The notes under the pieces are model-generated. The model was not told the DNA's origin. It saw nothing but the letters and a program-made list of their open reading frames with translations, and searched no databases. The position numbers were made by a program, and so were the translations under genes. Below are positions 690 to 7,221 of a stretch of DNA of 35,919 nucleotides, piece by piece; positions within the stretch are counted from its first letter, which is position 1; every line of letters begins with the position of its first letter. The DNA is from Cyclobacteriaceae bacterium (GTDB lineage Bacteria; Bacteroidota; Bacteroidia; Cytophagales; Cyclobacteriaceae): positions 1 through 35,919 of the forward strand of contig JAGTVG010000155.1 of the NCBI GenBank assembly GCA_018224645.1, given 5' to 3'.

Positions 690-812
690 CTAAAATATCA
701 TCACAAATGCGACACCTTTTCCCGGAACTGATTTCACTTCCAGGGTACCCTTATGCAACCGCATGATCTGCCGCGATAATGGTAATCCGATCCCTGAACC
801 TGCATCAATTAG
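690..812 (-). pseudogene. Relic of a sensor histidine kinase (C-terminal end of HATPase domain)
   Basis: On the minus strand, about 39 codons ending in TAG at 690-692 encode the last part of a GHKL ATPase domain. The G2-box-like GSGIGLPLSRQIMRLHKG is followed by LEVKSVPGKGVAF, the usual final strands of a two-component sensor kinase. There is no start codon, H-box, N-box or G1 box upstream. The frame runs open for some codons before the homology but resembles nothing. The gene has therefore lost almost all of its coding sequence. A match this specific to the family end is unlikely by chance. The relic is non-functional as it stands. Confidence 0.7.
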
Positions 813-916
813 ATAAACAGCATATTTATTAACCACAAATAATAAAGCATCAGACGCTTTCTTTTACTGCTTATCATAGTAAATAAAGGATATTTAAGCC
901 TGAGGTTGTGAAATTA

Positions 917-945
917 TTTGACTTTCCCAGATATTTCGTAAATTG
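917..945 (+). promoter_or_regulatory. Candidate Bacteroidota promoter of the cyclase-TPR gene
   Basis: TTTG at 917-920 and TAAATTG at 939-945 are 18 bases apart, close to the Bacteroidota TTTG/TAnnTTTG arrangement. TTGACTTTCC (918-927), ten bases, then GTAAATTG recurs with the same spacing at 4872-4899 before the CotH-like gene. The start codon lies 52 bases downstream of the -7 box. Confidence 0.5.
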
Positions 946-997
946 TATTAAGATAGGTTCTTGGGTGGCTGATTTTTAATTATAACACCAAATAGTC

Positions 998-2935
998 ATG
1001 CCAGACAGGCAATTAAGTGCAATTATGTTTACTGACATTATGGGCTATACATCTTTGATGAATGAAGATGAGCAAAAAGCACTCCAAATAATTGATAAAA
1101 ATGACAAGCTCCATGAATTATCATTAAAAACATATCATGGGCGTTTGATAAAAAAAATGGGTGATGGAACCCTTTGTTGCTTTTCAAGCGCTATCGAGGC
1201 AGTTCAATGCGCCATTTCAATTCAAAATGAAGTGGAAAAATACCCGCAACTCAATCTTCGGATAGGCATTCATCTCGGTGATGTGGTTATCCAGGAAAAT
1301 GATATATATGGTGATGGAGTTAATATTGCCGCTCGCATTGAAAGTTTAACAGGCTGCGGAGAGATTTATATTTCTGGTCAGGTATATGATTCCGTTAGAA
1401 ATCATAAAGAATTTCGATGTACATCGATTGGAGAAAGAAACCTGAAAAATGTCGGTAACCCAGTAATGATCTATAAAGTAATAACCAGTGAAAAATCTCA
1501 GAAAGAAACCTCAAATATTCATGAAATCACCTGGGATAAATCTATTGTAGTTCTTCCTTTTGATGATCTAAGTCCAGGTAAAGATAATGAATACTTCAGC
1601 GATGGACTGATTGAAGAAATTATAACCATGCTTTCTCAAATTCATAGTTTAAGGGTTATCAGCAGAACTTCCGCATTGATGTATAAAGGGAAGGTCAAAT
1701 CCGTAACAGCTATAGGTAAGGAACTCAATGTACAACATGTACTGGAAGGGAGTGTCAGAAAAGCAGGAAATCACCTTAAAATTACAGCTCAATTAATTGA
1801 TGCTGTAAACGACAATCATCTATGGGCCAAGAGTTACAGCGGTACCCTTGATGATATTTTTCAGATTCAGGAAAGTGTGTCCAGATCAATAGTTGACTCA
1901 CTTGAAATAAAACTTCTAAAAAATGAAAATCAAGTTCTTTCCAATCCTGTAATTCAAGATGCAAGAGCGTATGAATATTACTTAAAAGCCAGAAGTGAAA
2001 TTCTGAAGTTTACAGAAGTAGGATGTGAATATGCGATCAATTACCTTAATGCAGCGAAGGATATCATGGGAGATAATATCATGTTGATTGAAGGACTTGG
2101 TTTAGCATATTTCAATTATGCGAATGTTACACTTAAAGATAACAAACGATACTTGATGGAATGTCGGAAATGCGCAGAGCAAGCAATTCTGCTAAAACCA
2201 GACGCGTATCAGGGATATTTTCTTACTGGAATGGTAGAAGTTCTGGAAGGAGGTGGATGTGCTACCGCTTATCCATATCTTAAAAAAGCATTTAAGATAG
2301 CTCCTCAAGACCCCGAATTACTACTCTGGTATCCATTAGTCTTGGCTTTTATTGGCAAAACAGAAGAAGCTTTACCTTTGATGGATAAATTACTTGCCCT
2401 GGATCCATTGGTTTCAACAAACTATCTAATGTTAGCAAAAGCCCAGATGTTTACCGGAAAAATTGAAGCATCTTTGTCTTCTTTTCAACGGTGTGGTGAG
2501 CTTAATCCGCTTGATCCATTTCGATTTCTTTATGCCTATGCATTAGCATATAATGATCAACATAAAGAAGTAGATATGGTTGAGCTTGATCTTGCCAGGC
2601 ATTCCCCCACCGACGATTTCAGTACAATCTTTGTCAAAATGCTACAATTCGCATTAAAAAATAATGAACGAGGAATTAAGAACCTCCTTAGCTCCTCAAT
2701 TATTGCTAAATGTAAACAAGATTGTGAATTTTCCTGGTTAGTGGCCGATTGTTATGCATTGGTAGACAATAAAAACGAAGCGCTAAACTGGCTGGAGCAA
2801 TCAGTCGATAGAGGTTTTCTAAACTACCAGTTCTTTTATAATTTTGATCCCTTTATGGAAAATCTAAAAAAAGAAAAAAGATTCGAAGAGATCATGGATA
2901 AGGCCAAAAGAATTCTGGATGAAATCGATTTATAA
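998..2935 (+). CDS. Class III adenylate/guanylate cyclase fused to TolB-like domain and TPR repeats
   Basis: This 645-residue protein has three parts. Residues 5-160 are a class III cyclase homology domain that makes a cyclic nucleotide from ATP or GTP. It keeps metal-binding D13 in FTDIMGYT and D56 in KKMGDG, the beta-hairpin GIHLGDV, and the transition-state N109 and R113 in GDGVNIAARIE. Residues 182-300 resemble the TolB N-terminal/FlgO-like module commonly found after such cyclases (VVLPFDDLSP, then YFSDGLIEEI). Residues from about 320 to 640 are helical TPR-like repeats. There is no signal peptide or membrane segment, so it is probably cytoplasmic, with the TPR part sensing a partner. 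It stands alone behind its own promoter. A truncated relative lies at 7021. Which nucleotide is made is not certain from the sequence. Confidence 0.88.
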   Translation: MPDRQLSAIMFTDIMGYTSLMNEDEQKALQIIDKNDKLHELSLKTYHGRLIKKMGDGTLCCFSSAIEAVQCAISIQNEVEKYPQLNLRIGIHLGDVVIQENDIYGDGVNIAARIESLTGCGEIYISGQVYDSVRNHKEFRCTSIGERNLKNVGNPVMIYKVITSEKSQKETSNIHEITWDKSIVVLPFDDLSPGKDNEYFSDGLIEEIITMLSQIHSLRVISRTSALMYKGKVKSVTAIGKELNVQHVLEGSVRKAGNHLKITAQLIDAVNDNHLWAKSYSGTLDDIFQIQESVSRSIVDSLEIKLLKNENQVLSNPVIQDARAYEYYLKARSEILKFTEVGCEYAINYLNAAKDIMGDNIMLIEGLGLAYFNYANVTLKDNKRYLMECRKCAEQAILLKPDAYQGYFLTGMVEVLEGGGCATAYPYLKKAFKIAPQDPELLLWYPLVLAFIGKTEEALPLMDKLLALDPLVSTNYLMLAKAQMFTGKIEASLSSFQRCGELNPLDPFRFLYAYALAYNDQHKEVDMVELDLARHSPTDDFSTIFVKMLQFALKNNERGIKNLLSSSIIAKCKQDCEFSWLVADCYALVDNKNEALNWLEQSVDRGFLNYQFFYNFDPFMENLKKEKRFEEIMDKAKRILDEIDL

Positions 2936-3273
2936 ATCGAATCAATAAATTAAAATTTCCTTCTGGAAATGTGTTTATGCTGATTAATATTCTCTAGCAT
3001 TATATACATACCAGAAATATCTTCCAACCATCTTTCTGTTTTTTTAAGTAACTTGATCTGACGTATTGCATTTCAATTCCTCTTTCTCTTCTATTTGTTT
3101 CAATATCAAATTGAAATCCATATAGAAAATATAGGCCAAGTCACCCTTTATATCAATCTCCAATTTTCCTGGTGAAAGTTTAAATTCAAATACATAAAAA
3201 TTTCTACTTTAATAAATGAAGAGCCCTTACAAGCTACTTCTAAGACTTGAAAATCTACAATAAAAGTATCATA
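2936..3273. other. Gap between convergent genes, possible minus-strand relic
   Basis: No intact gene is visible. On the minus strand, the frame of the neighbouring hydrolase stays open for about 40 codons past its stop. A second frame then gives about 50 codons (roughly 3050-3205), including KLEIDIKGDLAYIF. Joining the two would need a shift at a T-run (minus-strand sense). The composition looks somewhat coding, but I recognise no family. Confidence 0.3.
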
Positions 3274-4155
3274 TTATACACTAATAGGCTTCCAAGACCA
3301 TCCATGCTCTTTTTTTTCAATATATCCCAAGCTAGGAAATGGATGAAAATGCTGGGCAAGTACCAGTGCCTTTTTATCAGCTACCAAATCATATATGCGA
3401 TATTTACTGATATCTGCATCTTCAGGCATTATATCAATTGATATATGCAGTTCAGGTTGTTCAAGAAATAATGGAAATATTACTGTATCACTGGTGAAAT
3501 ACAATTCTTCACCCTCAGACTCAAATGATACCACCATATGGCCTGGTGTATGTCCAGGGGCAAAATGCGTAAATATTCCAGGAAGAATCTCCTTTTCTTC
3601 TGTTATGAATTCAACTTTGTCTTTTACAGGGCCGAGTTGCCCTCGTGCCACCTTCATGAACATTTCAGTGGGTACAATCTGTGATAAATATTTATCCACT
3701 TCCTGTATGGCTTCATCGGAAAACCAGAAATCCCACTCTTTTTTCCAGATATAATATCTAGCATTCGGATAATTAGGATTTCCATCTTCATCCAGGGTGC
3801 CACCAATATGATCCGGATGGGCATGTGTAATAATCACAAAATCTATATCTTCAGGCTGTACACCGGCTAACTTCAGATTATCAATCATTTTTCCGGTGTC
3901 CGGACCCAGTTTTCCTGCACCCATATCTACCAAAACTTTATTGACACCGGTATTTACAAATGGAAATGTGTAAGGAGATTTAATAAAATCACCTGCAATA
4001 TTATGATTAAACATGATTTCCCTTACTTCCTCCTTTGATTTTCCTAGAAATAAATGGTTTGGATCGTAATCGAAGGTGCCATCACTTAAAGAAAGACATT
4101 CAAATTGTCCAATATTAAATCGATAAAATTTATCTTTTTGATATTGAGTTTTCAT
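3274..4155 (-). CDS. Metallo-beta-lactamase-fold hydrolase
   Basis: This 293-residue cytoplasmic-looking protein belongs to the metallo-beta-lactamase superfamily. The zinc motif HxHxDH is complete (H111, H113, D115, H116 in THAHPDHIGG). GHTPGH follows at 201-206, then the bridging aspartate D223 in TSDT and a late histidine in LAQHFHPF near 269-271. The layout fits lactonase- or glyoxalase-like hydrolases that open esters or lactones. The substrate cannot be fixed, and quorum-quenching lactonases are only one option. The C-terminal GWSWKPISV is typical of the subfamily, so the stop looks genuine. A second, different member of the fold lies at 32521-33369. It is transcribed alone, convergent with the cyclase gene. 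Confidence 0.85.
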   Translation of the reverse strand: MKTQYQKDKFYRFNIGQFECLSLSDGTFDYDPNHLFLGKSKEEVREIMFNHNIAGDFIKSPYTFPFVNTGVNKVLVDMGAGKLGPDTGKMIDNLKLAGVQPEDIDFVIITHAHPDHIGGTLDEDGNPNYPNARYYIWKKEWDFWFSDEAIQEVDKYLSQIVPTEMFMKVARGQLGPVKDKVEFITEEKEILPGIFTHFAPGHTPGHMVVSFESEGEELYFTSDTVIFPLFLEQPELHISIDIMPEDADISKYRIYDLVADKKALVLAQHFHPFPSLGYIEKKEHGWSWKPISV

Positions 4156-4933
4156 AAGGGTTAAGGGACTTGAATTTTAGTTGATTTAATGGATATACGA
4201 GTTATGTCATATTTAATTAAACATCAGCATTTTATTAATGGTTCATGATTTTCCCCTGATGATGTAATATAATAATTTTTTGACTTTTTTTATGGCGATT
4301 AAGACCACTGCTGCGTCCGTCCCTAGGTATCTTCATTTTCTTTTATGTGCTCCTCTGCTTCTTTTAGTTTTGCTCCCTGTCTATCATTGAGCTATATAAC
4401 TATGGCCGCATGAGATTTCTGGTTCCTTTACGGGTAAATAGGGTGATCCCCATTAAAAACAGTATTGATAACCTTCAATTTTATGTCTTGATGATTGTTA
4501 GTGATTTGTTACTCACCCTTTTAATGAATTTCATACGACCGACTTCTAACCAGCTGATTTTATACAATATTACAGTCTAAAACTGTGTCCAGCCCCCGGA
4601 CACCCAGTGTTCCATTACGAAACAAATGAACATCCCGGTTTAGAACCATATCATCCTGGTGGTAATAAAAAATCATATCATGAAATGATCATTTATGGGA
4701 TAAATTCTTCCGGAAGATAATCCCTGCCCCGGGACCCGGATCAGCCTTTGAGACAGGTCAAATATCATTCAATTTCCTGACAATATTTTAAAGATGATTT
4801 TCTGGATCTGCTGAGGAATCTTATCAAAGATCTTCCTGGAAAGAAACATCATATTCAGGCTTCAGATATTGTTGACTTTCCACAATTTTTTGTAAATTGA
4901 AGATAAGATTTTCCGGTAAGGACCCACTCCACC
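4156..4933. other. Long gap, no gene recognised
   Basis: This 778-base stretch lies between divergent genes. Short open frames occur on both strands (for example a 32-codon hydrophobic plus-strand frame near 4290), but none resembles a known protein. A small inverted repeat, TGTCC/GGACA, lies around 4587-4603. The promoter-like element of the CotH-like gene is at 4872-4899. Nothing else is supported. Confidence 0.4.
4872..4899 (+). promoter_or_regulatory. Candidate promoter of the CotH-like gene, twin of 918-945
   Basis: TTGACTTTCC at 4872-4881, ten bases, then GTAAATTG at 4892-4899 repeat the element before the cyclase gene base for base in both blocks and in spacing. The arrangement agrees with a TTG and TAnnTTG-like Bacteroidota promoter. 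It lies 34 bases before the first ATG. Confidence 0.5.
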
Positions 4934-7020: not shown

Positions 7021-7221
7021 ATGTCTACCAGGCGATTGGCTGCCATCATCTTCTCCGACATCGTCGGCTACACCTCCCTGATGGGGAAGGACGAAAAAAA
7101 AGCGTTTGATATCCTCAGGAAAAACCGCCGGATCCATTGGCGGCTGATCAGGAAATGCCGGGGACGAGAGGACGATTCGCGATTCGCGTTTCACGATTTT
7201 CGACATGACCATCCACCATAA
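7021..7221 (+). pseudogene. Truncated class III cyclase (N-terminal stump)
   Basis: The first 40 or so residues match the start of class III cyclases of the type at 998. FSDIVGYTSLMGKDEKKAF includes metal-binding D13, followed by ILRKNRRIH. The similarity stops at about residue 46. The rest (GREDDSRFAF...) is unrelated and ends at residue 66. The second metal aspartate, the hairpin and the Asn/Arg motif are missing, so no active cyclase can be made. Just after the break is a short repetitive run of ATTCGCG-type units (about 7174-7190), a possible deletion or rearrangement joint. A small regulatory peptide is conceivable but not supported. Confidence 0.75.

Follow-up and report, generated by a model that had tools for sequence, protein, structure and literature searches.

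Two genes of a Cyclobacteriaceae bacterium, one encoding a class III cyclase domain with TPR repeats and the other a CotH-like protein, are preceded by the same two-block motif. This raises the question whether the two genes are read from one kind of promoter and whether, as the original prediction proposed, they are also functionally linked. The window, i.e. the whole stretch of 35,919 nucleotides analysed here, is contig 155 of a fragmented MAG (4.69 Mb, 561 contigs).

Occurrence of the motif pair

The two copies of TTGACTTTCC-N10-GTAAATTG (Table 1) are identical at all 18 bases of the two blocks and equally spaced, as had been noted at the outset, and 5 of the 10 bases between the blocks agree. 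The motif ends 52 bases before the ATG of the cyclase-TPR gene (998) and 34 bases before that of the CotH-like gene (4934). It is not a sequence that is common at random positions of the genome: exact copies are limited to the two window sites, one further site differs at two bases, and the reversed control pattern yielded no match across the genome. Dinucleotide shuffles of the window gave an expectation of 0.09 matches with up to three mismatches. As the pair was picked by eye and post hoc, and the window contains four different block pairs that agree at 18 bases (each block at least 6 bases long, gap of 1-20), the bare coincidence carries little weight. Comparison of the two upstream regions showed that the similarity reaches past the 18 bases, with a 38-nt match of 79% identity (E 0.003); no flanking homology stands out beyond this promoter match.

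Table 1. Positions of the genes, predicted promoters and related elements in the window.
Feature	Coordinates	Strand	Basis or remark
Predicted core promoter of the cyclase-TPR gene, TTGACTTTCC-N10-GTAAATTG	918-945	+	Sequence; ranked first by profile R2
-33-type TTG of the cyclase site, followed by N18	918-920	+	
-7-type box TAAATTG of the cyclase site	939-945	+	
Second half of the leader, AGATAGGTT-N8-GCTGATTTT	951-976	+	Starts at the predicted +1; before cyclase-TPR genes only
Class III adenylate/guanylate cyclase domain and TPR protein, 645 aa	998-2935	+	PF00211, E 1.7e-15; TPR_19/TPR_14
Predicted core promoter of the CotH-like gene, TTGACTTTCC-N10-GTAAATTG	4872-4899	+	Sequence; profiles R1 and R2
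TAAATTG box of the CotH-like site	4893-4899	+	
CotH-like protein, 370 aa	4934-6046	+	Family motifs; PF08757 matches in family members
Truncated 5' part of a further cyclase gene, codons 1-49	7021-7167	+	67% identical to congener C9a; tblastn E 3e-15

Layout of the predicted promoters

Promoters of the Bacteroidota primary sigma factor (sigma-ABfr / sigma-A) carry TTTG at -33 and TAnnTTTG at -7 (PMC7366714). Both window sites share with this type an upstream TTG, an AT-rich spacer and a -7 box starting with TA, and their spacing (TTG-N18-TA) lies within its range of about 18-21 bases. They differ from it in the box itself, TAAATTG, which is one T short of TAnnTTTG, and in the conserved ACTTTCC that follows the TTG.

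A de novo EM search of 404 upstream regions of the genome with an order-3 background recovered TAnnTTTG from most seeds; it replaced a first search with a mononucleotide background, which had converged on CCGG and T-runs. The full layout TTG-N18-21-TAnnTTTG, the commonest promoter layout in this genome, was found 13 times in sense and never in antisense orientation. The de novo recovery of the box and this strand bias indicate that the layout of the window sites fits a promoter in this organism. Sites of the E. coli sigma-70 type were no more numerous than in shuffles. Upstream of genes, TAnnTTTG boxes occur 88 times in sense versus 30 times in antisense orientation. The shorter TAnnTTG boxes show little strand bias (95 versus 78), and this class is therefore at most a minor one in the genome.

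The shorter box resembles SM5 of Flavobacterium psychrophilum, a TAnnTTGY motif at -12 to -5 that was attributed to a proposed alternative sigma factor and that has been mutagenised and found active at remFG-sprCDBF (PMC9723704). Both window boxes match the TAnnTTG core of SM5, which is one base shorter than the sigma-A box. The pyrimidine that follows the G in SM5 is a T at the cyclase site and is replaced by A at the CotH-like site; the promoters of the congener described below likewise have A (C9a and C26c) or T (C9b and C222) at this position. Genes with SM5 in F. psychrophilum function in LPS synthesis, amino-acid scavenging and gliding (PMC9723704), a set different from the genes found here, and F. 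psychrophilum belongs to a different family than the Cyclobacteriaceae. By SM5 numbering, transcription is predicted to start at 951 for the cyclase gene and at about 4905 for the CotH-like gene, the former being the first base of a conserved AGATAGG block.

Both window sites are arranged like Bacteroidota promoters, lie at plausible distances from the start codons and are recovered by a profile trained on the congener (see below); they very likely represent one promoter type. The suggestion of a shared sigma factor or regulator is partly supported in silico, as far as the type of promoter is concerned. A shared alternative sigma factor is possible, since the -7 box falls one base short of the housekeeping one, as in SM5 (PMC9723704). 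From the sequences alone, the sites hint at an SM5-like short -7 box outside Flavobacterium, in the Cyclobacteriaceae, that is tied to an identifiable gene family.

Independent recovery by promoter profiles

Cyclase-TPR homologues were collected from the genome and from its congener, Cyclobacteriaceae bacterium Ww429 (JAHEGY01), and their upstream regions were read. Class III cyclase matches number 15 in the former and 35 in the latter, and some are arranged in tandem (three in a row at C9 of the congener). The same promoter together with AGATAGGTT-N8-GCTGATTTT precedes several of the cyclase-TPR genes of Ww429, whose cyclase domains are only 36-50% identical with the exception of one pair at 78%.

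Two profiles were built from these promoters and run against the whole genome. Profile R1 comprised five leader-bearing promoters aligned by their leader, with the CotH-like site left out, and returned the latter as its best non-training match (E 5.2e-5; next match 0.026). Profile R2 was trained on four promoters of leader-bearing cyclase genes in the congener, so that neither window site was used, and ranked the cyclase site first (E 3.4e-5) and the CotH-like site second (E 2.2e-4; next match 0.28); the E-values of both profiles are rough owing to shortened calibrations, yet the next match follows at three orders of magnitude. This resemblance is therefore genuine, and it places the CotH-like promoter with those of the cyclase genes. 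Furthermore, alignment of the CotH-like promoter with the cyclase promoters C9a, C9b and C11 gave scores of 54-58, compared to shuffle maxima of 33-36. The remaining genome-wide profile matches lie before unrelated genes or outside promoter positions. Gapped identity proved uninformative for such short promoters, as shuffles average 0.59, so that the ungapped identity of the leader and the E-values of the profiles were used in its place.

A genus-restricted leader of cyclase-TPR genes

Several cyclase genes of the two genomes have a long leader in common, TTGACTTTCC-N10-[GT]TAA[AC]TTG-N3-TAAGATAGGTT-N8-GCTGATTTTT, which consists of the promoter core and a second conserved block. Allowing for small numbers of mismatches, the second block precedes seven cyclase-TPR genes in the genus, one in the MAG and six in the congener (loci C9, C103, C222, C26 and C254), while most cyclase paralogues of both genomes lack the leader. 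A scan of 84,980 genomes yielded four exact copies of the second block in the congener; elsewhere it gave 21 single matches, scattered over other genomes, a number within the range that chance would produce when 18 bases are fixed and 257 Gb are searched. Judged from these matches, the block is confined to this genus. Leader-like matches outside the genus (ATATAGGTT...GATTTTCAT) fall within a coding motif that is read as YIGSLVADFH and that we take to belong to FBPase, and the remaining ones in family members outside the genus look like chance.

Over 27 ungapped bases, the second block is 67-85% identical between genes, whereas identity over the first 480 coding bases is mostly 49-57%, which points to constraint on the leader. 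Its likeliest role would be that of an operator or of a bound element of the early transcript, and it would probably confer family-specific control. A candidate RNA hairpin before the start codon (GCTG...CAGC, with apparent covariation to TGTTG/CAACA) was rejected, as six leaders fold no better than shuffles (z -1.1 to +0.9), and no Rfam family matched the leader. Two of the congener leaders, L163 (C103) and L160 (C254), contain an insert of about 60 nt at the same place between the -7 box and the AGATAGG block, which carries the inverted repeat CCTTCC...GGAAGG.

This genus-restricted leader is a more interesting feature than the motif pair, which is ordinary to mildly interesting. With a block that sets in at the predicted transcription start, the leader offers a concrete target for work on the control of an expanded cyclase family.

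The CotH-like gene

The window CotH-like protein had no Pfam match of its own. PF08757 (CotH) was matched by 4 of 17 aligned members of its family (best E 4.1e-8), and the motifs RG-R, NTDW-HN and DFD are conserved in the family, which makes the label CotH-like a reasonable one. A hydrophobic N-terminal segment, judged by eye, suggests that the protein is probably exported. The single-sequence AlphaFold model (mean pLDDT 35) was unusable for assessing a kinase fold.

Upstream of this gene, the promoter core is present and the second block AGATAGGTT-N8-GCTGATTTT is absent; past the predicted start, a few bases (AAGATA) are perhaps retained. A candidate for a decayed leader at 4551-4565 did not reach significance (E 0.084 in the window). 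The promoter was absent upstream of the CotH-like homologues in relatives (29-55% identical) and of the five paralogues in the same genome.

Probable origin of the shared promoter type and the proposed functional link

On balance, we consider it probable that both sites are core promoters of the type found in the cyclase leaders, and that the CotH-like gene acquired its core by duplication or capture. The same RNA polymerase holoenzyme would bind both sites through the TTG near -33, the 18-bp spacer and the TAAATTG -7 box. This promoter type would form part of a leader carried before a subset of the expanded class III cyclase-TPR family, in which a second conserved block from about +1 would hold the family-specific control. 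The CotH-like gene would have the core without this block, after duplication or capture of a cyclase-family promoter in a cyclase-rich neighbourhood. Copying or capture is the simplest account, because the neighbourhood contains both an intact cyclase gene and the 5' fragment of another, which starts with MSTRRLAAIIFSDIVGYTSL, ends abruptly and is located 1 kb beyond the CotH-like gene. The sequences show that both sites are present and statistically related, how the leader is built and that it is limited to the genus; we infer promoter activity, the identity of the sigma factor and duplication as the origin. Duplication falls short of proof, as the two window promoters match over a short stretch (38 nt, 79%) and their flanks show no remaining homology. 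That most cyclase paralogues of the two genomes are without the leader also weighs against this account.

Alternatively, the two sites could have converged as independent strong examples of a general or rare Bacteroidota promoter class with an SM5-like TAnnTTG box, their extra identity (TTTCC and the T-rich spacer) being in part chance selected by the reader. That the window holds four equally good gapped pairs is in keeping with this explanation, as is the use of other promoters by related CotH-like genes, from which it would follow that the CotH-like site arose anew. It also gains from the established status of the TAnnTTGY class in F. psychrophilum (PMC9723704) and from isolated similar sites (TTGAC...GTAAnTTG), which occur singly before unrelated genes (C30 and C67) and owing to which convergence retains some probability. 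We nevertheless regard it as rather unlikely, because no other site in the genome comes near these two with the congener-trained profile and because the strand counts of TAnnTTG versus TAnnTTTG boxes show that the class is not common. A pure chance match without promoter function would be in line with the post-hoc selection among four such pairs, and is extremely improbable given the E-values obtained from a model that used neither site and a position and layout that fit promoters.

The proposal that the CotH-like protein is functionally tied to cyclic-nucleotide signalling corresponds to a dedicated regulon, in which both genes would answer to one particular alternative sigma factor or activator because their proteins work in the same pathway. 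Such a regulon is favoured by the agreement of the two sites in boxes and spacing, by a box that is shorter than that of housekeeping promoters and by the location of both genes on the same strand 4 kb apart; a cyclase of sensor-like character could also conceivably be paired with a protein that is probably exported. Against it, the promoter is missing from the homologues of the CotH-like gene in relatives, and the CotH-like gene itself lacks the cyclase-specific downstream block. In addition, the only contigs that carry both a CotH-like and a cyclase gene are the window itself and one of the congener, where 19 kb lie between them; G002, G006 and G026 have none, and the pairing showed no recurrence in the five relatives compared. 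Genome-wide profile searches of the MAG also failed to find a third, unrelated member. As the homologues are without the promoter, contigs are rarely shared and the other matches are unrelated, neither a regulon nor a conserved partnership is visible, and we consider a dedicated regulon improbable. The proposed link is thus left without support, given the missing second block, the homologues without the promoter, the unconserved neighbourhood and the lack of a regulon; the tie should be built upon only if expression data come to back it. A more speculative version, in which a lineage-specific alternative-sigma regulon uses the two-part leader (SM5-like promoter plus the block from +1 to +26) to control a subset of cyclase-TPR genes and has recruited the CotH-like exported protein as a non-cyclase output, appears quite improbable.

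Gene fragments related to the cyclase neighbourhood

Short 5' cyclase fragments similar to the one beyond the CotH-like gene were observed at C19:12990 and C368:1615 in the MAG and on C3, C16, C124 and C211 in the congener, some of which may be cut by contig ends. Furthermore, an isolated 57-codon frame on the minus strand of the window (690-863) encodes the C-terminal end of a histidine kinase ATPase domain (AGSGIGLPLSRQIMRLHKGTLEVKSVPGKGVAFVMIF) and is apparently a gene remnant located just upstream of the cyclase promoter.
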